A DNA stretch of 64,000 nt, taken from positions 1,454,501 to 1,518,500 of the forward strand of contig NZ_CP012418.1 in assembly GCF_001708405.1 (NCBI RefSeq), written 5' to 3'. The notes under the pieces were generated by a model, which made no database searches, was not told the origin of the DNA, and saw only the letters and a list, made by a program, of their open reading frames with translations. Positions within the stretch are counted from its first letter, which is position 1. Each line of letters starts with the position of its first letter. Of this stretch, positions 52,367-64,000 are shown one piece after another. The position numbers were made by a program, and so were the translations under genes. The stretch comes from Kangiella sediminilitoris. Its GTDB lineage: Bacteria > Pseudomonadota > Gammaproteobacteria > Enterobacterales > Kangiellaceae.

Positions 52367-53455
52367 CTAAAACAACTCTTTATAAGCCCTGAAACGTAGA
52401 AAGTGATCGCATAAAACCAAGGCTGACATAGCTTCAACAATTGGAACCGCTCTGGGTAATACACAGGGATCATGACGCCCCCGTCCATGAAAGACCACAT
52501 CCCTTCCTTCTTTGTTGACCGTTTCCTGTTCACGAATAATAGTAGGTGTTGGCTTAAAAGCTACCCTGAATACGATCGGCATTCCATTGGAAATACCGCC
52601 TAAAACACCACCCGAGTTATTTGACCGGGTTCGCACCACACCGTCGTCGTCAAAGAAAATATCATTGTGTGTGGATCCTTGCTCAAGAGTCCCGGCAAAA
52701 CCTGAACCAATTTCAAAACCTTTACTTGCATTAATGGCTAGCATAGCTTTAGCTAAATCGGCTTCCAGCTTGTCGAATACGGGCTCTCCCAGTCCAGCAG
52801 GAACACCTCTCAATTGACACTCTACAATGCCGCCTAAAGAGTCCCCAGACTTTCTGGCTTTTTCAATTTTGGTTACCATTTTATCGGCCAATGACTCATT
52901 GGGACAACGCACTAAATTGGTTTCAATTAATTCGGGATTTATATCTTCGGGCTCAGTCGTCAACTCTAAGTCCTGAATACTTTTGACGTAGCCAATAATA
53001 TCCACACCAAGCGCCTGATGAAGCACTTTTCGTGCAATTGCACCAGCCGCGACATGTCCGGCGGTAATTCTTGCGGAACTGCGGCCCCCACCGGCAACAT
53101 CTCTTATTCCGTACTTCTTGTGATAGGTGTAATCTGCATGGCTGGGACGAAATAGCTGAGCCATTTCAGAGTAATCTTTACTTCTCTGATCTTTATTACG
53201 AATAAATAAACTTATTGGGGTACCCGTGGTTTTACCATCAATAGTACCGGATAAGATTTCAACAGAATCGGCCTCATCTCGACGAGTGGTAATCGAACTT
53301 TGTCCTGGGCGGCGCTTATCCAAATAGGGCTGGATATCTTCCTCAGATAGCGCTAATCCTGCCGGGCAACCTTCGACAACTACCCCGATACCCTTCCCAT
53401 GGGACTCACCGTAGTTGGTAACCCGAAATAATGTTCCTAAGCTATCACCCGCCAT
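52367..53455 (-). CDS. aroC: Chorismate synthase
   Basis: Last step of the shikimate pathway, FMN-dependent. 362 residues from ATG 53455, with GGAG six bases upstream. Motifs: [80 protein letters not shown], and [18 protein letters not shown]. It overlaps the end of aroA by 11 bases. Final gene of the minus-strand aromatic supra-operon; its stop abuts a bidirectional terminator. Confidence 0.97.
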
Positions 53456-54752
53456 TCTGCACTCCAATTAATTGACTGTTAACATCAGCCACTTCTATTC
53501 CTATTTTCTCAAGATAGTCCCAATATAAAGGAAATGATTTTTCCACCGCCTGAGCGTCTTCGATTACAATACCCGGTATACGAATACCAATCAAAGCGAA
53601 GCTCATTGCCAGACGATGATCATGACAGCTGGATAAAGTGGTTGCCTGTAAATTTTGACCGCCAGTTACGGTTATGCTGTCTTTGCTATAAGTAATCTCT
53701 GCACCTAATTTATTCAGCTGTTCGCAGAGATCCACAATTCGATTGGACTCTTTAAATGCGAGATGGGCAATATTGGTGATATGAGTTATACCTTCGACAA
53801 ATAAAGCCAATACTACTAACGTTGGAACAACGTCTGGCATATTGCCCATATCTACTTCAGTCCCCCGTAAAGAGCCTGTATATGAAACTTTTAAGGTACC
53901 TGCCTGACACTCAACCTCAGCTCCCATTTTAGAGAGAATTCCATAAAATAGTGACTCACCCTGAGGAGAGTTAAAGTCAAAGCCTCTAATGGTTACTGAA
54001 GTTTTGCCCAACAATGCAGCGACCATAAAGTAACTGCTGCTGACGACATCGCCTGCAACGTCAATGTTTGGGGCTGATAGATATTGTTCTCCTTTCACCA
54101 GTAGCTCACTACTGGATATATCTTCCACGCGCCCACCAAATTTTTTAATAGCTTCTTTTGTCAGCTCAACGTAACTGGATGAAACCGTTTTACCTACAAG
54201 CTTTATTCGTGTGTCACTCTTTGCCTTTAATGACGCTATTAATAAAGCACTCAAGTACTGACTGCTACGACTTGTATCAAGAGAAATAGTCCCTCCCCGA
54301 AGAGGCCCCTTTAACTTAATGGGTAAGTTGTTCCCACTAACTTCAACTCCCAAGTCCCGCAAGCTCTGTGCGACCTCTGCCATCGGTCGCTGACGCATTT
54401 GCTTACTGGCATCAATCACAGTTTCTGACTCTAGATTACTAGCCAGGGCAGTCACAAAGCGACTTAAGGTTCCGCTATCCCGACAATTAAGTTTAACCGT
54501 CCCCTGTTGCTTATACTCCCTGATACCTCGAATAGAGACTTCCTTCTCACTCAAATGACGTACTGTGGCACCAAGTTTGCCTACTGCATCGAGTGCAGCT
54601 TCAATATCATCATTCTGAGGGAGGTTCCTCAACACAGTTTCACCATTAGCAATAGCCGCCAGAGCTATATACCGATTTGCCAGATATTTACTACCCGGCA
54701 TCACTACTTCTGGATCAACAATATGGTGAGAAACAATCTTTTTAGTTGTCAT
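53445..54752 (-). CDS. aroA: 3-phosphoshikimate 1-carboxyvinyltransferase (divergent AroA)
   Basis: EPSP synthase. 435 residues with twin inside-out domains. Retained: PGSK near the N-terminus, SGT..R in [17 protein letters not shown] (E. coli Gly96/Thr97/Arg100 equivalents), [34 protein letters not shown], an Asp equivalent to Asp313 in [19 protein letters not shown], and [10 protein letters not shown]. Departures: the Ser after the catalytic Lys is Tyr ([10 protein letters not shown]), GNAGTAMRP reads DSGTLSRF, and KETDR reads KESNR. The gene is far from the enteric AroA but its operon position with aroC supports the same reaction. A paralogous enolpyruvyltransferase is less likely. Confidence 0.85.
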
Positions 54753-54781
54753 AATCTAATCTTTTAAACAAGATAGGGGCA

Positions 54782-55024
54782 CTATGGTTGCAGTTCCTCA
54801 ATAAGCTCTGAGAGTAGCTCGACATCGCGATCACTCAAGCCATCTGATTCAACCGCATCCTCTACAAATAATGCGAACTCTGCGAACCACTGTTCATCTG
54901 TTAAATCATCCGCAGGAATTAAATCAACCATAGGGACCAGATAACCTACTAAAAATAACTTCTCTTCCTCTACTTCCTGCTCCAGTTGCAATAACCTTTG
55001 CTTGATATCGTCAGCAATCGACAT
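54782..55024 (-). CDS. Small acidic YfcL-like protein
   Basis: 80 residues from ATG 55024; the open frame starts 13 codons earlier without a binding site. Strongly acidic. The pattern LFLVGYLVPMVDLI ... FVEDAVESDGLSDRDVELLSELIEEL resembles E. coli YfcL (LFASGYLRGHL ... AGELSPRD). YfcL is also encoded close to aroC in enterics. Function unknown. It sits between trpA (45 bases upstream) and aroA (29 bases downstream) on the same strand. Confidence 0.65.
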   Translation of the reverse strand: MSIADDIKQRLLQLEQEVEEEKLFLVGYLVPMVDLIPADDLTDEQWFAEFALFVEDAVESDGLSDRDVELLSELIEELQP

Positions 55025-55069
55025 AGCCTTACTCTCTCTTTTGTGTTGTCTTGTCAAACTCAACCCAAA

Positions 55070-55900
55070 TTAGGCAGTTTGGGTATGGTTTCTATGAGCA
55101 GCTTGAGCTATGGATCGTACATACTCCCCAATATGCTCAAGCATAATCTGAGGGTTATTATAATGTTGATTGATCAAGTTAACTATGGCTGAACCCGTAA
55201 TAATTCCATCAACTCCCGCATTAGCCGCATCAAAAACATGCTGAGGCTCTGAAATACCAAAACCTTGTACCAAAGGCGGGCTATTAAATTTTTTTAAAGT
55301 ATCTAGAAATTTAGTACTGGCTTTATTAGCAGCGACCTCGGTTCCCGTAATTCCTTTTCTGCTAAGTACATAGGTATAGCCACGGCTTGTCGCTGCTATC
55401 TGTTGTAAAACCTCATCAGTAGCATCAGGCGGAGCAATAAAGACAAGATCAACTCCCTGGCTTTCAGCCACATCTGAGAAAAGCTTAGATTCTTTGACTG
55501 GACAATCCGCAATCAATACCGAATCTATACCAGCAAGACGACATTTATTAAAGAAGTTTTCCAGTCCTTGAGCAAAAGCTAAATTAGCATAAGTCAGCAA
55601 ACCTATCGGCAACTCGGGATACCTCAGCCTTACTTCACCAATCAGCTCTAAGCCATCAGAAATAGAGAACTGGTTAGCTAAGGGACGTAAAGTTGCTTGT
55701 TGAATTACAGGTCCATCCGCAACTGGATCTGAAAAAGCTAGCCCAAGTTCTAACCCATCTGCACCGTTCGCAACCAACGTATCAATGATATCCAGCGACA
55801 GTTCTTTATTAGGATCACCGACGACGACAAAGGGAATATAGGCTAACTGCCCTTCTTCTCTAACTCTTTTGAACATAGTGTTATAGCGCACTTCATTCAC
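55070..55900 (-). CDS. trpA: Tryptophan synthase alpha chain
   Basis: Cleaves indole-glycerol phosphate, passing indole to TrpB. 276 residues. Catalytic Glu/Asp in [24 protein letters not shown], then [12 protein letters not shown] and the phosphate-binding [22 protein letters not shown]. It overlaps trpB by 8 bases (translational coupling). Unlike most trp operons it is not the last gene: yfcL-like, aroA and aroC follow without an evident terminator. Confidence 0.96.
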
Positions 55901-57116
55901 CTCTTTGCTTTTGTTCTATGATATCCATGACATGATTCAAGTCTTTATCACCTCTGCCGGATAGGTTTACCAATAAAACTGTCGGTTCTTCCGCGTGTTC
56001 ACTTAACTTTTTTGCGTAAGCCAATGCATGAGATGACTCCAGCGCTGGTATGATACCCTCCGCGAAAGATAACTCCTGGAATGCTTCCAGGGCTTCATTA
56101 TCTGTGACTCCAACATATTCAGCACGACCTGAGGTCATTAGGTGAACATGTTCAGGGCCTACTGCCGGATAATCCAAACCAGCTGAAACAGAATGAGATT
56201 CAACTATCTGGCCTTCTTCAGTTTGTAACGTATGTGTTCTGGCACCATGGATAATCCCTTCCTTGCCTTTGAGTAAGGTAGCACCATGAGCGCCACTATC
56301 GAGACCATGGCCAGCAGGCTCTACTCCAATTAACTGCACCCCATTATCGGGTATAAAATCAGTAAATATACCGATTGCGTTAGAGCCACCACCAACACAC
56401 GCTATAACTGCATCAGGCAGCCGCCCTGTTTGCTCTATAATCTGGCGTTTAGCCTCTTCACCGATGACCTGTTGAAATCGTTTAACCATTTTAGGAAACG
56501 GATGTGGGCCTGCAACTGTTCCAAGAAGGTAGTGCGTATCATCATAATTTGTTGCCCAATCACGAAGTGCTTCATTTATGGCGTCTTTAAGGCTTGCACT
56601 TCCGTTATCAACCGGTACAACTTCTGCCCCCATTAGTCGCATTCTAAAAAGATTAGGCGCTTGACGCTCACAATCTTTCTTACCCATGTAGATGGTTGCC
56701 TTCAGCCCCAGAAGTGCGCAGGCTAAAGCTGTCGCTACACCATGCTGTCCTGCACCAGTTTCAGCAATAATACGTTTCTTTCCCATTCGCTTGGCCAATA
56801 GTGCCTGAGCCAAGACCTGATTGGTTTTATGTGCTCCACCATGGAGCAGATCTTCGCGCTTTAGAAAGACTCGGCAGTTATCGTTGCGACCAAACGTTTG
56901 ACATTCAGTTAAGGGGGTTGGTCGCCCCGCATAGTCACTCAATAGACTATTGAGTTCATCTAAAAACTCCTGGTCAGCGATAGCGTTTTCAAAAGCTTGT
57001 TCCAGCTGCTCCAATGCAGGCACTAAAATCTGAGGCACAAACTGACCTCCATACTGTCCGATATATGCCCCGTTATATTCATACTTTTTACTTTCGTGTT
57101 TCTCAGCTACTGACAT
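55893..57116 (-). CDS. trpB: Tryptophan synthase beta chain
   Basis: PLP enzyme joining indole and serine. 407 residues. [18 protein letters not shown] at the N-terminus, PLP-Lys in [29 protein letters not shown], the phosphate-binding [12 protein letters not shown], and [11 protein letters not shown] at the C-terminus. Three bases separate it from trpCF, and it overlaps trpA. Confidence 0.97.
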
Positions 57117-57119
57117 AAT

Positions 57120-58493
57120 TTACCTCTTAGTATTTCTTCCAGATTTTGCGCGAGCATTGAAGAAAAGTTCACTCACTTTGTCTAAAGATTTAATGCCCGG
57201 TTCTGATTCTGTACCGCCGCATACATCTATTGCACTGACCCCTAATAGCTTTAGTCTCTGAATGTTGTTTGAATCAATACCACCAGCAACTCGAACCTTA
57301 AGATTTGGAAAGTGTCGTTTAAATTCATTAATCAGAGACCAGTCAAAATTCTGTCCAGTACCACCTGTTAAATCTCCAATTTTTGTATCTAAAAGCACCT
57401 CGTCCACAGCATACTCAAATGTTGTAGGAATCTTCTTATCAGGTTCTATGGAAAGCACCTTGGACAACTTGCAATGTTCAGGGAGAGCTTCCTTTAGTTC
57501 TTTGACATAACTGACGGACTCATCGCCGTGTAGTTGAACTGTTTCAAGATCGTGCTTATTAACCAGCTCTAATACCCGTTCAAGGCTGTGATTTTGGAAT
57601 ACACCAACTCTTGGCTTATGACTTTTAAGCTCATTATCCTTGAAGTATCGCGGAGATCGCTCTACAAAGATCATACCCAGAGATGAAGCTGGAGTGCTCT
57701 GTAATGCATCAGCATCGTATTGATTTGTCACTCCACAGATTTTGATATCACCATAAACTAGTTCGCTGGTGGCTTTATCTAAATCCTTTTGAGACATCAG
57801 TGAGCTACCAACCAGGCAGGCATCTGCAATAGGAGATAAACTCAATACATCATCATGGCTATTAATACCGGACTCAGTAACGACAATGACATCGTCTGGG
57901 ACATTTCTTGCCAAACGCTCTGTATGAGACAGGTCGACACTTAAATCTTTTAAATTCCTGTTATTGATACCGATGATTTTTGCATCAAACTTAAGAGCTC
58001 TTTCCAACTCTTTATCATCATGAACTTCCGTTAAAATATCCAGAGCTAGCTTTTCGGCCTGTTGTTTACAGGCTTGATAGGATTTGTCGTCTAATACCGA
58101 CATCATTAGTAAAATTGCATCCGCACCATGGTGACGAGCCAGTCGGACTTGCTTCGGTTCTAAGATAAAGTCCTTACAAAGAACCGGCTTATCCGTGTTT
58201 TCACTAACATACTTTAGATTGGCATAGCTGCCTCTAAAGAATCGGTCTTCTGTCAGCACCGAAATGGCATCGGCATACTGATTATAAACCGGTACGATTT
58301 CTTTCAGGTTAAAATCAGAACGTATCAATCCTTTAGACGGTGATGCCATTTTACACTCCATAATAAAACCGAAGTACGGTTGACTCAGCGCATCATAAAG
58401 ACTTCGAGTACTTTGCTCCAGTTCATATACATCAGAACTATTGGCTAAGGTTTCTCTCCTGTGGTCGACAATTGCCTGTAGTACGTTAACCAT
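57120..58493 (-). CDS. trpC: Fused indole-3-glycerol phosphate synthase / phosphoribosylanthranilate isomerase
   Basis: 457-residue TrpC-TrpF fusion, a gammaproteobacterial trait. TrpC half (1-about 255): GFIMECKMASPSKGLIR, VLCKDFILEPKQVRLARHHGADAILLM, LTEVHDDKEL, IIGINNRNLK, VTESGI. TrpF half (about 250-455): KICGVTNQYDADAL, LGMIFVERSPRYF, VGVFQNHSLERVLELV, VQLHGDESVSYV, VLLDTKIGDLTGGTGQNFDW, VAGGIDSNNI, and IDVCGGTESEPGIKS. Both active-site sets look complete. The start overlaps trpD by 8 bases. Confidence 0.95.
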   Translation of the reverse strand: MVNVLQAIVDHRRETLANSSDVYELEQSTRSLYDALSQPYFGFIMECKMASPSKGLIRSDFNLKEIVPVYNQYADAISVLTEDRFFRGSYANLKYVSENTDKPVLCKDFILEPKQVRLARHHGADAILLMMSVLDDKSYQACKQQAEKLALDILTEVHDDKELERALKFDAKIIGINNRNLKDLSVDLSHTERLARNVPDDVIVVTESGINSHDDVLSLSPIADACLVGSSLMSQKDLDKATSELVYGDIKICGVTNQYDADALQSTPASSLGMIFVERSPRYFKDNELKSHKPRVGVFQNHSLERVLELVNKHDLETVQLHGDESVSYVKELKEALPEHCKLSKVLSIEPDKKIPTTFEYAVDEVLLDTKIGDLTGGTGQNFDWSLINEFKRHFPNLKVRVAGGIDSNNIQRLKLLGVSAIDVCGGTESEPGIKSLDKVSELFFNARAKSGRNTKR

Positions 58494-59493
58494 GCGACAA
58501 CTCCTTGATCTTCTCTAGCTGCTGCAAGGCTTTCCCACTTTGAATCAGATCTCGTGCTATTTGATAGCCATCATCATAACTGCCAGCCAAATCATTCAAT
58601 ACCAATAATGCAGAACTATTAACTGCAACCATATCAATGTGAGCTTCAGTACCTTTCCCAGTCAGTAATTTGATTGCTGACGTTTTGTTATCAATATCTT
58701 TTGATGTTTGAATATCCGATAAAGAGTGTCGTTTAGCTGAAAAATCTTCAGGAGTTAACTCTTCCATTGTAATGACACCATTATTTAAGCTAACAGCTTT
58801 GGTTTGACCATGAACAGCAATTTCATCCAGACCCGAACCATGAACGATTAAAGCTTTCCTGGTGCCAAGTAGCTTTAGAATTTCAGCAAACGGCTCTAAG
58901 TACTGTTCATCGTAGACACCTAATAACTGCACATCCGGAAGTGCTGGATTTGCTAATGGTCCAATTAAATTAAAGATTGTCCTAGTTTTTAATGACTGTC
59001 TTACAGGCATCACATGCTTAACGCCTTGATGATATTCCGGTGCAAATAGAAAGCAAAAATTAGCACTATCCAAGAGCTCCTTACTCTTGGCAGCAGATAG
59101 ATTAATATTAACCCCGAGCTGCTCCATTAAATCAGCAGATCCACAGTTAGAAGAAACAGATCGATTACCGTGTTTCACTATTTTTACGCCAGCAGAGGCA
59201 GCCACAATTGATACCAGGGTAGACACATTAATCGTATTTAGCCCGTCTCCTCCTGTTCCACAACAATCACTGACAGAGTATTGAGGTGGTGGGAAATATT
59301 GAGCTTCATGACGCAATGCCGCGGCAGCACCCGCGATTTCCTCTACAGTTTCACCTTTTGTTTTAAGTGCAGCTAACATGGCGGCAACAACCGGTATCTC
59401 AATATCACCTTTCAATACTTCTCTGAACGAGCAGCTGGCTTGCTCAAAGTTCAAATGCCGTCCTTGATACACATTCTCAAGCAAATTCAGCAT
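58486..59493 (-). CDS. trpD: Anthranilate phosphoribosyltransferase
   Basis: 335 residues from ATG 59493, which is preceded by AAAGGAAAGGAG; the longer open frame adds 18 residues and reaches into trpG. Signature DCCGTGGDGLNTINVSTLVSIVAASAGVKIVKHGNRSVSSNCGSADLMEQLG binds phosphoribosyl pyrophosphate (motif quoted by position about 83-133). IFNLIGPLANP and VHGSGLDEI follow. It overlaps trpG by 17 bases and trpC by 8. Confidence 0.95.
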   Translation of the reverse strand: MLNLLENVYQGRHLNFEQASCSFREVLKGDIEIPVVAAMLAALKTKGETVEEIAGAAAALRHEAQYFPPPQYSVSDCCGTGGDGLNTINVSTLVSIVAASAGVKIVKHGNRSVSSNCGSADLMEQLGVNINLSAAKSKELLDSANFCFLFAPEYHQGVKHVMPVRQSLKTRTIFNLIGPLANPALPDVQLLGVYDEQYLEPFAEILKLLGTRKALIVHGSGLDEIAVHGQTKAVSLNNGVITMEELTPEDFSAKRHSLSDIQTSKDIDNKTSAIKLLTGKGTEAHIDMVAVNSSALLVLNDLAGSYDDGYQIARDLIQSGKALQQLEKIKELSHG

Positions 59494-60097
59494 ATACTTT
59501 CTCCTTTCCTTTAAAGCTGGTACTACCCTTGGAAAATAATTGAACAAAGTTTTTCAAAATATCAGTTCCTTTTTTGGACATAATACTTTCAGGGTGAAAC
59601 TGAAGACCGTAAACTGGTAACTCTCGATGGGATACAGCCATCACTTCCTGATCATTTGTTTCCGCATCTATTTGTAAAACGTCTGGGATAACTGTTCCTG
59701 CAAGGGAATGGTAACGGGCGACCCTTAAGCTTGTGCCAAGACCCGTTAAAACACCGCTACCATGTGATTTCACAACATCGGTTTTACCATGAACAATTGC
59801 CTTTGCAGGCGTAACTTCGCCACCATAAGCAGAGACGATAACTTGATGCCCTAAACAGACTCCCAGAATAGGTGTATACCCATTCAAATCTCTGACCAGA
59901 CGAATGCAGTGACCAGCGGTTTCTGGTGAACCAGGCCCCGGAGAAATTACCAATAAGTCGGTGAGTTTGCTGTTACGAAGCAACTCTTCATAATCAATAT
60001 CATTTCGACAGACCGATACTTCATGCCCTAATGATTCAAATTCATAGGTGAGGTTGTATATGAACGAATCGTAGTTATCGATAATCAAAACCTTCAT
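59477..60097 (-). CDS. trpG: Anthranilate synthase glutamine amidotransferase subunit
   Basis: 206-residue class I glutaminase supplying ammonia to TrpE. IDNYDSFIYNL at the start, oxyanion loop ISPGPGSPETAG, nucleophile Cys in LGVCLGHQVIVSAYGG, and His-Glu in GLQFHPESIMS. Separate from trpD, unlike the enteric TrpGD fusion. Start and trpE stop overlap by 4 bases (ATGA). Confidence 0.95.
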   Translation of the reverse strand: MKVLIIDNYDSFIYNLTYEFESLGHEVSVCRNDIDYEELLRNSKLTDLLVISPGPGSPETAGHCIRLVRDLNGYTPILGVCLGHQVIVSAYGGEVTPAKAIVHGKTDVVKSHGSGVLTGLGTSLRVARYHSLAGTVIPDVLQIDAETNDQEVMAVSHRELPVYGLQFHPESIMSKKGTDILKNFVQLFSKGSTSFKGKEKVYAEFA

Positions 60098-61662
60098 ACT
60101 AATACCTCGGAATTAATTTGTTGTTTTCGACATGCATCAATAACAGCCTTAGCTTTGTTTACAGTTTCGAGCGCTTCCTCCCGGGGTATTGAGTCATGAA
60201 CAACTCCAGCTCCAGCCGTAATTTCAGCTACACCGTCGGTTACCACTGCAGAACGGATAATAATGGCGCTATCAAACTCGTCATTAGCATTCAAGGTGCA
60301 TACGGCGCCCCCATAATAACCACGAGCTTTGTCTTCCTGCTGCCTGATAATCTCCATAGCCTTTATTTTTGGTGCTCCAGTCAACGTGCCCATATTGGCG
60401 CAAGCTCGATAAGCGACCAAGGAATCAATATCAGGTTTCAACACGCCTTTAACTTCAGAAACCATGTGCTGCACATGAGAATATTTGATAACTCGTTTAA
60501 GCTGAATGACTTCTCTTGTACCCTTTTCCACGATTTTCGCCAGATCATTCCTGGCTAAATCAACCAACATCATATGCTCAGCGTTCTCTTTAATATCCTC
60601 AATTAATTCAAACTCTATGCGCGAATCCTGATCGTGATTGATTTGCCCGGTGATTGAGTCAAACGCACGCTTGCGGGTACCTGCTATGGGATATAGAAAT
60701 ACTTCTCTTTGTCGATTAACTTTAAGTGCACTCTCAGGACTTGCACCAAACAGTTCTTTATCACCAAAGTTAATAAAATACATATAGGGAGAAGGGTTAC
60801 TTAACCTTAAGTTGCCATAGGCCTGGAAAGGATTGGGGCATGAAACAGAGAAAATACGAGACAGAACCACCTGAAAGATATCGCCCTGCTTAATTCGCTC
60901 TCTGGCCTCCTCAACCTTCTGGTAGAAATCCTTGTCAGCAATGTTGAGAGCAATTTCAGTGTTCCCCATAGTAGCGGGGAAACTTAAGGTATCTGAAACA
61001 GATGAACCCTTCAGTATTTGATAAATTTGCTCGAGCTCAACACCAAGCCTGACAGTATTGTCTGCGTTACTACCAAAGCCCTTCACTATAATTTTGGCAT
61101 TTTGATTATCATGACTCTGAACTACCAGTTGGTCAGCAATGTAGAAACAGTAGTCTTCTTGATTTTTTTCAATATCAGGCAATGTTTCATATTGTTCAAC
61201 AACCTCATAACTAAACGCTCCTATCAGCATAGAAGATTCATTACCGGCAGAGTCTTCAGTTTTTATAAGGTCTCTTAATTTCTGCAAAACCGATACCGTA
61301 GTGTTCTCAAATAAGCGCTCTCTTTCATCACTCATCTGAGGGCTTCCTTTACAAGTCAATTCCAGAGAAACTTTTTTGTCTTTTATTAAAAAATCTCGGC
61401 AAAATTCGCGACTGCCTAGAACAGCATCAAGAATAAAACTCCCATTCTCATTCAGAGCATTGAGAGTAACTGTTTTGCCCAGTGCCTTAACCTGTAAAGC
61501 AGCAGAGAGCATGCTCACGCTATTCTTATGATGATGGGTTCCAGCTTCTGCCGTTTCTAACAGAGCGGTATGACTTTGCTTTCCATTATCAGATAAAACC
61601 GCGAACACTTGATAAGGACTCAGGCTAAGAGGTAATCTTCTACTCAGTGTACTAACCTGCAT
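60094..61662 (-). CDS. trpE: Anthranilate synthase component I
   Basis: Converts chorismate to anthranilate. 522 residues. The N-terminal feedback site has LLETAEAGTHHHKNSVSMLSAALQV, where enteric enzymes have LLES. The catalytic part contains ARERIKQGDIFQVVLSR, NPSPYMYFINFGDKELFGASPES, YPIAGTRKRAFD, AEHMMLVDLARNDL, GTLTGAPKIKAMEII, and YYGGAVCTLNANDEFDSAIIIRSAV. Overlaps aroF by 11 bases and trpG by 4, so the head of the operon is tightly coupled. Confidence 0.96.
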   Translation of the reverse strand: MQVSTLSRRLPLSLSPYQVFAVLSDNGKQSHTALLETAEAGTHHHKNSVSMLSAALQVKALGKTVTLNALNENGSFILDAVLGSREFCRDFLIKDKKVSLELTCKGSPQMSDERERLFENTTVSVLQKLRDLIKTEDSAGNESSMLIGAFSYEVVEQYETLPDIEKNQEDYCFYIADQLVVQSHDNQNAKIIVKGFGSNADNTVRLGVELEQIYQILKGSSVSDTLSFPATMGNTEIALNIADKDFYQKVEEARERIKQGDIFQVVLSRIFSVSCPNPFQAYGNLRLSNPSPYMYFINFGDKELFGASPESALKVNRQREVFLYPIAGTRKRAFDSITGQINHDQDSRIEFELIEDIKENAEHMMLVDLARNDLAKIVEKGTREVIQLKRVIKYSHVQHMVSEVKGVLKPDIDSLVAYRACANMGTLTGAPKIKAMEIIRQQEDKARGYYGGAVCTLNANDEFDSAIIIRSAVVTDGVAEITAGAGVVHDSIPREEALETVNKAKAVIDACRKQQINSEVLV

Positions 61663-62686
61663 AATCGAACTCCTTAATGCTACGTCCGCTAGCCTTAATA
61701 AATGGAACCAGCTGTTGCATTAGTTGTGAAAAGTCATCTGCTGACAAGGCCTGTGCAGCATCAGATACGGACTCTCTAGGGTTTCTGTGGGACTCAATAA
61801 TCAATCCATCTGCACCACAGGCTACTCCTGCTTTTGCCATGGGACTTACTAAAGTGCGAACACCCGTACCATGAGAAGGATCAACAATGACAGGCAGGTG
61901 ACTTTTTTCTTTTATGAAGGCTACTGCGTTAAGGTCCAGAGTATTTCGGGTTGCAGTTTCGAAAGTCCTAATTCCCCGTTCGCAAATCATCACATTAGGG
62001 TTGCCGGTTGCAACAATATACTCAGCTGCAAGTAATAATTCTTCAATTGTTGCTGACAAGCCACGCTTCAGAAGAACTGGGTGTTTAGTTTCTCCCACGG
62101 CTTTAAGAAGTGTGTAATTTTGCATATTTCTGGCACCGATTTGAAAAGCAGAAACATGAGTAGCGATATCATCGAGGTCATTGATATCCATTATTTCGGT
62201 GATAGTATCCATACCAACTTCCTGTCCAACCTGCTGCATTATTTTGAGTCCCTCAAGCCCCAGTCCTTGAAATGAGTATGGGCTAGTTCTAGGTTTGAAC
62301 GCGCCCCCTCTCAATACAGTTGCACCACTCGCCTTAACCTGCTTAGCGGTTTCTAAAAGCTGGTCGTAACTCTCAATGGCACAGGGTCCAGCCATAATAG
62401 TGAAGTCATCACCACCGACAGGAGTATTACCGATAGGGATCACAGTGTCATGTGGATAGATCTCTCTACTGACTAATTTGTATTTACTTAGTACTGGCTT
62501 TACATGTTCAACTTGAGGATGATTATCAAGGTGGAGGGACTGTAGAATACGCTCATCTCCAAGCGCACCAATTACTGTTCGCTCTACTCCCGGCATGTGT
62601 AGTGGCTTTAAACCTGATTGCTCAATCTGGTTTAAGATTTCTCTAGCATCGGCTTCACTAGCAGTTGGTTTCAAAATTATAATCAT
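61652..62686 (-). CDS. aroF: DAHP synthase, type I-beta with N-terminal ferredoxin-like domain
   Basis: First enzyme of the shikimate pathway. 344 residues from ATG 62686, preceded by AAAGGAAA; the open frame extends 27 codons upstream through the attenuator and is not used. N-terminal about 70 residues form the ferredoxin-like regulatory domain ([32 protein letters not shown]). The barrel has [55 protein letters not shown], and [10 protein letters not shown]. No chorismate mutase domain is fused. Family members of this layout are usually inhibited by Tyr or Phe; here expression is governed by tryptophan attenuation, since it is the first structural gene after the tandem trp leader. Confidence 0.93.
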
Positions 62687-62720
62687 GGAAATTTCCTTTA
62701 AAGTTAATTTAATCAGGCAT

Positions 62721-62746
62721 AAAAAAAGCCCGCACAATGGCGGGCT
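62721..62746 (-). terminator. trp attenuator 2 (terminator)
   Basis: Minus strand: AGCCCGC (62746-62740), loop, GCGGGCT (62733-62727), then at least six T residues to 62721; the ATG of aroF is 35 bases further. Upstream, GGTGGGTT (62776-62769), lying directly after the stop codon of leader peptide 2, can pair with AAGCCCGCC through two G-U pairs and so act as antiterminator. Confidence 0.85.
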
Positions 62747-62776
62747 TCTGTCATATTCAATAGACAATAACCCACC

Positions 62777-62833
62777 CTAGTGAATCCACCACCATGTAAA
62801 TTTAGCGACTGTGTTTAGGTTTGTTACTGACAT
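62777..62833 (-). CDS. trpL: trp leader peptide 2
   Basis: ATG at 62833, 18 codons, TAG at 62779-62777: MSVTNLNTVAKFTWWWIH with three consecutive Trp codons at 14-16. A purine-rich GAGAAGAG lies 10-17 bases upstream. The stop codon is followed at once by the antiterminator arm of attenuator 2, so a ribosome finishing the peptide would cover that arm while one stalled at the Trp codons would leave it free. Confidence 0.88.
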   Translation of the reverse strand: MSVTNLNTVAKFTWWWIH

Positions 62834-62877
62834 AATTAAGTTTCTCTTCTCTTAATGTTTACTTTTCATTCAGGCAT

Positions 62878-62902
62878 AAAAAAAGCCCGCATAGTGCGGG
62901 CT
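62878..62902 (-). terminator. trp attenuator 1 (terminator)
   Basis: Minus strand: AGCCCGCA (62902-62895), loop CTA, TGCGGGCT (62891-62884), then six T residues to 62878. The arm GCGGGCT at 62940-62934, directly after leader peptide 1, pairs perfectly over seven bases with AGCCCGC of the terminator and is the antiterminator. Confidence 0.9.
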
Positions 62903-62943
62903 TTTATGAATTCATTTCGTCTATACGCAAAGGAGCCCGCCAC

Positions 62944-62991
62944 CTAAGTAACGTGCCACCACCAAATATTTTTAACGTAAAATTTTTTCAT
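62944..62991 (-). CDS. trpL: trp leader peptide 1
   Basis: ATG at 62991, 15 codons, TAG at 62946-62944: MKKFYVKNIWWWHVT with three consecutive Trp codons at 10-12. No good ribosome binding site is visible; if the nearest promoter is used the message would begin almost at the ATG. The stop is two bases from the antiterminator arm of attenuator 1. It differs in sequence from leader peptide 2 apart from the Trp triplet. Confidence 0.82.
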   Translation of the reverse strand: MKKFYVKNIWWWHVT

Positions 62992-62998
62992 AAACAGT

Positions 62999-63027
62999 AA
63001 ACTAGTTTAAAAATTGCTTAGGGTCAA
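62999..63027 (-). promoter_or_regulatory. Candidate trp supra-operon promoter and TrpR-like operator
   Basis: Minus strand: TTGACC (63027-63022), 17-base spacer, TAGTTT (63004-62999). The -10 lies in the palindrome AAACTAGTTT (62999-63008), which shares the CTAG core of TrpR operators. Transcription would begin about 62992, leaving leader peptide 1 nearly leaderless. An alternative pair further upstream, TTGAAA near 63061 with TAAATT about 17 bases on, inside the parA 3' end, would give a normal 5' leader. Confidence 0.45.
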
Positions 63028-63032
63028 GAAAT

Positions 63033-63743
63033 TTATTTACCTTTAACAAATTTTTCAACCTGACTTTCAGTTTTAAGCCTCGTGTTACCCTGCTTTGCAA
63101 GAAGTCTTTCTATATTTGAAGTTAAGGCCCATATTTCCAGTTTCGCTGCCGGATCATGCCACTCTGCCACGGTCAGGCCATCAGCAAATGAATCAAGATA
63201 AGCCACACGATTACCTAATTTAGTTGAAAAATCTTCCAGTCCAAGCTCTTTTTTTGCGCTGGAAACAACATCCTCAGCAGAATTAGTACGTACACGGTAG
63301 CGATTCCAGCAGATTCTAGCCTCGAGACTGTTATTTATCTGCTTTGCTTCTTCGACGATTTCAGCCAGATGCTTTGTAGACCAAACCTCGACCTGAGAAG
63401 GAGCCATTGGTATGAGTACGGCATCCGATAATAGAATGACGGCTCGTGTCAGGTTTGTAATACGAGGGTGCCCATCAATGAGAATGTACTCATAGTCATT
63501 GATATTGTCTCGAACCAGAGATTGTAAGTGCTTAAGGTTCTTAGCGACCAAAACGTCTAGATTTTCAATGACATAACCTTCATTTCTTATGTCATACCAA
63601 GTCTTCAGGGAGCATTGAGGAACGTCTGTATCAATCATCAACACATTACCAGACTCAGATAATGTCGAGGCAATATTCGAGCAGAGGGTTGTTTTACCAG
63701 CCCCACCCTTCATTTGGACAAAACTCAATACTTTCGCACGCAC
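63033..63743 (-). CDS. ParA/MinD-family ATPase without a visible ParB partner
   Basis: 236 residues. Deviant Walker A KGGAGKTTLC at about 12-21, switch MLIDTDVPQCSLKTWYD with the ParA-type Asp, and LIDGHPRITNLTRAVILLSDAVLIPMAPSQVEVWS. It lacks an N-terminal DNA-binding domain, so it is of the small ParA type that positions chromosomes, plasmids or protein clusters. No parB, parS-like repeat or chemotaxis/flagellar gene is adjacent in this window, so its cargo is unknown. It lies just upstream of the trp leader on the same strand with no terminator between, so some read-through into the leader is possible. Confidence 0.85.
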   Translation of the reverse strand: MRAKVLSFVQMKGGAGKTTLCSNIASTLSESGNVLMIDTDVPQCSLKTWYDIRNEGYVIENLDVLVAKNLKHLQSLVRDNINDYEYILIDGHPRITNLTRAVILLSDAVLIPMAPSQVEVWSTKHLAEIVEEAKQINNSLEARICWNRYRVRTNSAEDVVSSAKKELGLEDFSTKLGNRVAYLDSFADGLTVAEWHDPAAKLEIWALTSNIERLLAKQGNTRLKTESQVEKFVKGK

Positions 63744-63802
63744 GGTGAACTCCCTATATCTTGTTTGGAAATAATTTTACATGACATAAGGTATTACGCA
63801 AG

Positions 63803-63821
63803 AGCCCCTTAAAACGGGGCT
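63803..63821 (-). terminator. Weak hairpin between the edge gene and parA-like gene
   Basis: AGCCCC/GGGGCT with a seven-base loop, 11 bases after the stop of the partial gene on the minus strand. Only a short, interrupted T-run follows, so termination may be inefficient. Confidence 0.45.
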
Positions 63822-63831
63822 GTGAGGTATA

Positions 63832-64000
63832 TTATTCGGTTCTTAACTCATCAAGCTGCTTTCCCGTCAGCTCTCGCCATTTAACCGTGGTCATCTGATC
63901 GAGAAAGTCACACTCATTGCCACCACAGATCTTTTCCAATCCAACGTAACCAGCACTTTCCGAAGCCTCCCCACTATCATTAATTGGGAAAAAGACCGAG
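63832..64000 (-). CDS. C-terminal end of an unrecognised protein (runs off the right edge)
   Basis: Minus-strand frame open from the window edge to a TAA at 63834-63832. It gives 55 residues, containing FFPINDSGEASESAGYVGLE, KICGGNECDFLDQM and a C-terminus KWRELTGKQLDELRTE. The two cysteines (CGGNEC) could form a disulfide or a metal site. I do not recognise the family. The gene lies upstream of the ParA-like gene on the same strand, 89 bases away. Confidence 0.55.
   Translation of the reverse strand, partial: SVFFPINDSGEASESAGYVGLEKICGGNECDFLDQMTTVKWRELTGKQLDELRTE

Follow-up and report, generated by a model that had tools for sequence, protein, structure and literature searches.

The window analysed here is a 64,000-nucleotide stretch of Kangiella sediminilitoris DNA (contig NZ_CP012418.1), and all coordinates refer to it. 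Read from the sequence, the minus strand holds, in this order, a promoter, leader 1, terminator 1, leader 2 and terminator 2, followed by aroF, the first gene of an operon that continues through the trp genes to aroA and aroC (Table 1). The gene content as assigned by NCBIfam agrees with the aroF-trp-aroA-aroC supra-operon that had been proposed in an earlier note on this DNA. Two tandem attenuators, each with a WWW leader, a terminator and a T-run, had also been described there; they are present in the sequence, and both antiterminator arms match the letters as they had been given. Between trpA and aroA lies an ORF of 93 aa that is rich in acidic residues (54782-55063, minus strand). On the other side of the leader region, a co-directional parA-like gene (region 63022-63743) ends at 63033, directly before the promoter. 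A sigma-70-like site was searched for in the stretch between the two units, and none was found.

Table 1. Features of the operon and its leader region, in window coordinates
Feature	Position	Strand	Basis or remark
Operon promoter (TTGACC, 17 nt, TAGTTT)	62999..63027	-	TTGAC[CG]-N17-TAnnnT conserved in position in 20/20 genus genomes
Promoter elements TTGACC and TAGTTT	63027-63022 and 63004-62999	-	Read from sequence
Leader peptide 1, MKKFYVKNIWWWHVT	62944..62991	-	ATG 7 nt past the -10 element; Trp codons 62956-62964
1:2 protector hairpin of attenuator 1; loop holds the leader stop codon	62938..62953	-	Energy and moderate covariation
Antiterminator arm 2 of attenuator 1 (GCGGGCT)	62934..62940	-	Compensatory changes with arm 3
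Consensus elemental pause, GGCTCCTTTGCG	62926..62937	-	6/6 consensus positions; G at 62926 is +1
Terminator 1 (arms 3 and 4) with T tract	62878..62904	-	Folding and covariation
Leader peptide 2, MSVTNLNTVAKFTWWWIH	62777..62833	-	Trp codons 62786-62794
Antiterminator arm 2 of attenuator 2 (GGGTGGGTT)	62769..62777	-	Arm table, energies, masking model
Terminator 2 (arms 3 and 4) with T tract	62720..62747	-	Folding and covariation
aroF, DAHP synthase (PRK08673 / TIGR01361 type), first gene of the operon	61652..62686	-	NCBIfam
trpE, trpG, trpD, trpCF, trpB, trpA, 93-aa ORF, aroA, aroC	52367..61662	-	NCBIfam and ORF reading

A genome-wide search with a pattern of TGGTGG and a CCCG/CGGG terminator returned both units and only two further places, which look like ordinary gene ends. 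Both units gave full-length matches to the Rfam family Trp_leader (RF00513), with 31.5 bits for unit 1 and 25.9 for unit 2, both below the gathering cut-off of 41. Among the Rfam matches up to an E value of 5 in the region 61500-64000 there was no T-box. Behind the T tracts of both terminators, at 62878 and 62720 here and likewise in most relatives, stands the motif [AG]TG[CT]CT[AG]; it is missing at three of four other similar terminators examined in the genome, the fourth of which reads ATGACTA.

Structure of the two units

In both units an ORF with adjacent Trp codons lies between the promoter and aroF and is followed by an intrinsic terminator, and in both an antiterminator (2:3) and a terminator (3:4) were found that exclude one another. 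The earlier note had suggested that relatives be tested for covariation of the two antiterminator/terminator pairs, and arms 2, 3 and 4 do covary across 82 units: one position reads G,C,G in 72 of them and A,T,A in 6, and a second reads C,G,C in 33 and T,A,T in 12. The same picture came from counting pairs against shuffled and slid controls, for each of terminator 1, antiterminator 1 and terminator 2; the variable pairs behind these counts are few, because the CCCG core is nearly invariant. For unit 2 the 3:4 pairs were counted, and the 2:3 pairing was assessed by the arm table and energies only. The selection on both units that the note had proposed is backed by conservation, covariation and tests of the reading frame.

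Leader 1 is present in all 20 genus genomes, and its ATG follows the -10 element at a distance of 6-7 nt in every one of them, which places the transcription start on or adjoining the A of this ATG. Leader 1 is thus probably leaderless, its start codon being predicted from this spacing to lie at the 5' end of the RNA. A Shine-Dalgarno match was sought for leader 1 and none was found (mean -0.7 kcal/mol). Taking all 42 loci with two full units, the spacing is 6-8 bases in about 34, relatives that are not independent of one another, and in none of five single-attenuator relatives with a recognised promoter (L045, L048, L052, L061, L077). For this comparison, L061 and L062 were taken from direct reading of the loci.

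The protector hairpin of unit 1 has a mean energy of -7.3 kcal/mol and reaches -3 or lower in 19/19 genus units measured; it is consistent within the genus only, and the moderate covariation of the 1:2 stem gives it weaker support than the other arms have. Arm 2 of the antiterminator is short (6-7 bp), and the chance of an equally good arm in one sequence was 0.034 by shuffling. Just past this arm sits a pause site. The consensus of the elemental pause is GG-N6-TGYG, and the site scores on average 5.18 of 6, against 4.36 for shuffled sequences; across 34 genomes it is enriched, as 0 of 300 shuffles scored as high. The hairpin of terminator 1 (62904-62882) has an energy of -16.8 kcal/mol (z -6.1).

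Leader 2 is open from its start codon, past terminator 1, in 20/20 genus genomes, compared with 3.5 expected from shuffled bases. Its Shine-Dalgarno sequence is weak (-2.1 kcal/mol) and that of aroF is good (-5.7). No protector hairpin was found for unit 2 within the genus (-2.8 kcal/mol), and a consensus pause is not enriched over shuffles in attenuator 2. By shuffling, an equally good antiterminator arm would arise in one sequence with a chance of 0.006. The terminator 2 hairpin (62747-62726) has an energy of -16.2 kcal/mol (z -5.3). In unit 2 the antiterminator folds more stably than the terminator throughout the 20 genus genomes (-20.6 vs -14.7), whereas in unit 1 the two are balanced (-15.9 vs -15.3). 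Leader 2 of one genus clade (clade B: L014, L015, L021-L025) runs through arm 2, as in WWWNWIQRAFVREFLLH, and stops later, so a ribosome at its stop codon would leave arm 2 uncovered.

Distribution and origin of the tandem pair

The tandem series is found in 20/20 genus genomes, the present genome counted. Absence of the second leader from close relatives, which the earlier note had named as part of what would speak against its reading, was sought and not seen. Outside the genus, 17 genomes of the family were readable, and 12 of these have two full units; in L036 and L053 the second leader is worn to one Trp codon, and L045, L048 and L052 have a single unit. With the second unit lost or worn in 5/17 genomes, the pair is not indispensable. 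Repeats of the ATGTCCAGGGATGGACTGTATG type lie between the last terminator and aroF in three genomes of family genus g3 (L045, L048, L050), in two of which (L045, L048) one attenuator is left.

Beyond the family, a tandem pair precedes the same aroF in 10 genomes from four families of the order: in 5/5 genomes of family f15, in 3/3 of f14, and in f4 and f13 with one readable genome each. A single attenuator is found in f6, f23, Ferrimonas and Enterovibrio. An order-wide pattern search of 395 genomes supplied examples among the matches listed and was not a basis for the tandem counts. One of these examples is L186 (family f7, genus g91), in which two WWW attenuators stand in series directly before trpE, without aroF; this pair is probably an independent case. 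In the same genus, two other genomes have one pattern match each among the matches listed. Outside the order, 274 genomes sampled from the class yielded no match to the same aroF at E 1e-120 except that of the present genome.

A block of 22 bp that recurs in the two units 157 bp apart had been taken in the earlier note as the mark of a tandem duplication with subsequent divergence of the leader peptides. The block is real, and its 18-base core occurs genome-wide only in the two terminators. The duplication itself fared less well. Leader and spacer of unit 1 are no more similar to those of unit 2 than shuffled sequences are (mean z 0.64, n 34), and terminators are as alike between genomes (0.631) as within one (0.646). 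An origin by duplication is possible but is not supported by these comparisons. On the aroF tree the tandem label requires at least 5-6 changes, and a single origin of the tandem state was rejected on this count. The state may best be explained by an old gain followed by losses, or by several gains, a history that long branches in the tree make unsure.

Predicted control and rival readings

The response of each unit was modelled by folding with the ribosome footprint masked, P(2:3) being taken before arm 4 emerges. In genus clade A, a ribosome on the Trp codons gives P(2:3) of 1.00 for unit 1 and 0.95-0.99 for unit 2, a ribosome on the stop codon gives 0.00, and without a ribosome the values are 0.62 and 0.94, respectively. 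The complete ribosome-free transcript of clade A folds fully into terminator 1. These values suggest that both units obey the classical logic with differing default states. Terminators mostly prevail at full equilibrium, which makes the outcome a matter of timing, as it is for the classical attenuator. For unit 2 of clade B the masking model yields no closed state (0.80).

We infer the stalling, the termination, the default states and an effect on the regulatory range to be as follows. With charged tRNA-Trp present, the ribosome would reach the leader stop codon and cover arm 2, so that the 3:4 terminator forms. When Trp is scarce, it would stall on UGG UGG UGG, 2:3 would pair before arm 4 emerges, and the polymerase would continue; aroF would be transcribed only by a polymerase that has cleared both units. 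Unit 1, entered at a leaderless 5' AUG and equipped with protector and pause, would terminate by default when untranslated. Unit 2, with its weak ribosome site, stronger antiterminator and no protector, would close only if its leader is fully translated. Two such checkpoints could, as the earlier note had assumed, multiply the repression ratio and sharpen the response.

The position of unit 1 directly behind another gene bears on what it does. The stop codon of the parA-like gene lies 4-61 bp before the -35 element in 20/20 genus genomes, with no intrinsic terminator between. Read-through RNA from this gene gives leader 1 no ribosome site, so unit 1 should terminate it and may thereby also insulate the operon; terminator 1 would probably end such read-through too. 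Taken further, unit 2 could be the one Trp sensor and unit 1 mainly an insulator against this read-through, with which the lack of a Shine-Dalgarno match in leader 1 and the default folding of untranslated RNA into terminator 1 would also agree. However, unit 1 keeps WW/WWW, a compensating antiterminator arm, a protector and a pause, features that a plain terminator could do without; there are also tandem units with no close co-directional gene upstream (L038, L046, L047, L049, L050), and the insulating and Trp-sensing roles can coexist. A single sensor is in our judgement improbable.

We regard it as very improbable that unit 1 mainly yields a trans-acting small RNA or peptide, as S. meliloti trpL does, and leaves control in cis to unit 2. 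The leaderless WWW leader recalls rnTrpL/peTrpL of that species (PMC7298713), and within the genus the leader 1 peptide is better conserved than that of leader 2. Yet the conserved residues that follow WWW map onto the protector hairpin and are accounted for by RNA structure, and antiterminator 1 is conserved although a trans role has no need of it. That the second unit has no function, being either a recent duplicate or a remnant in decay, as the 22-bp block common to both terminators, the worn second leaders of L036 and L053 and the losses in L045, L048 and L052 might suggest, is scarcely credible: in several families second units keep WW/WWW, an open frame, a terminator and an antiterminator, and outside these parts they are unlike first units. 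The reading as two serial ribosome-mediated Trp attenuators on one transcript, predicted from sequence to control aroF, whose product is the first enzyme of the shikimate pathway, and the whole trp pathway, is favoured with high confidence.

Whether the two attenuators act independently was considered in the folding model. With antiterminator 1 forced and leader 2 fully translated, clade A shows pairing between the freed arm 4 of unit 1 and arm 3 of unit 2 with a P of 0.99 as long as arm 4 of unit 2 has not emerged, and of 0.08 at full equilibrium; the model is an equilibrium one without kinetics and shows only that coupling is possible. As far as the model allows, read-through at unit 1 could aid read-through at unit 2. 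A more ambitious version, which we consider rather doubtful, is a coupled two-stage gate that replaces TrpR, with a default-closed leaderless stage followed by a default-open stage that is disarmed by arm 4 of the first. Only transcripts from the native promoter would open the first stage, and its antitermination would free arm 4 to disarm terminator 2; the response would then be cooperative and not the product of two independent ratios.

A search for TrpR (PF01371) gave nothing above the cut-off in any genome covered, namely the 20 of the genus and the other family members and tandem genomes searched, with a match in E. coli as a control. Many genomes with a single attenuator lack TrpR too. 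Its absence therefore has no diagnostic value, and the idea that its loss specifically brought about the tandem state was rejected.

Relation to known systems

Attenuation in trp operons is the textbook case of RNA-based control, where it is presented with a single leader. A design with two leaders and without TrpR, found across the family and apparently old, would allow the contribution of a second elongation checkpoint to range, steepness and noise to be tested in nature, as well as its ability to replace a repressor. Leader 1, apparently leaderless, could likewise be used to test how ribosomes load onto a nascent 5' AUG immediately behind RNA polymerase. A recent account describes control of trp as switch-like with two layers in E. 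coli and as graded with a single layer in B. subtilis (PMC13178558); beside the designs sketched there, the tandem pair would be a third, with two layers that both act at elongation. No earlier report of tandem trp attenuators or of two trp leader peptides was found in the open-access literature, and the arrangement appears not to have been reported earlier, although priority is not certain.

Like E. coli trpL (RF00513), the units have adjacent Trp codons, arms 1-4 and an intrinsic terminator ahead of trp genes, and unit 1 shares with it a pause after the 1:2 hairpin. Unlike the classical trp attenuator, there are two units in series, leader 1 is apparently leaderless, TrpR is missing, unit 2 has neither protector hairpin nor consensus pause, the operon starts with aroF and ends with aroA-aroC, and both units fall below the Rfam cut-off. 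The trpL RNA of S. meliloti starts at the AUG of its WWW leader peptide (PMC7298713), as the RNA of unit 1 is predicted to do, and there too attenuation operates without repression of initiation; this alphaproteobacterium has a single attenuator with known trans functions, whereas a pair is present here. A second terminator in tandem has been noted in the rimP leaders of some gammaproteobacteria (PMC2965389).

The nearest precedents are mgtCBR and the tandem Trp T-boxes. Salmonella mgtCBR carries tandem leader-ORF attenuators that respond to two different signals, ATP and proline (PMC3641672). It resembles the present leader in having two translated short ORFs in series, but lacks hairpins like intrinsic terminators, whereas both units here have such terminators and are predicted to sense Trp. 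Tandem Trp-sensing T-boxes are common in Bacillota (PMC12452182) and, as the pair here is predicted to do, check one signal, Trp charging, twice in succession during elongation upstream of trp genes; unlike these units, T-boxes belong to a different phylum and act through direct tRNA binding, in which neither a leader peptide nor a ribosome takes part.
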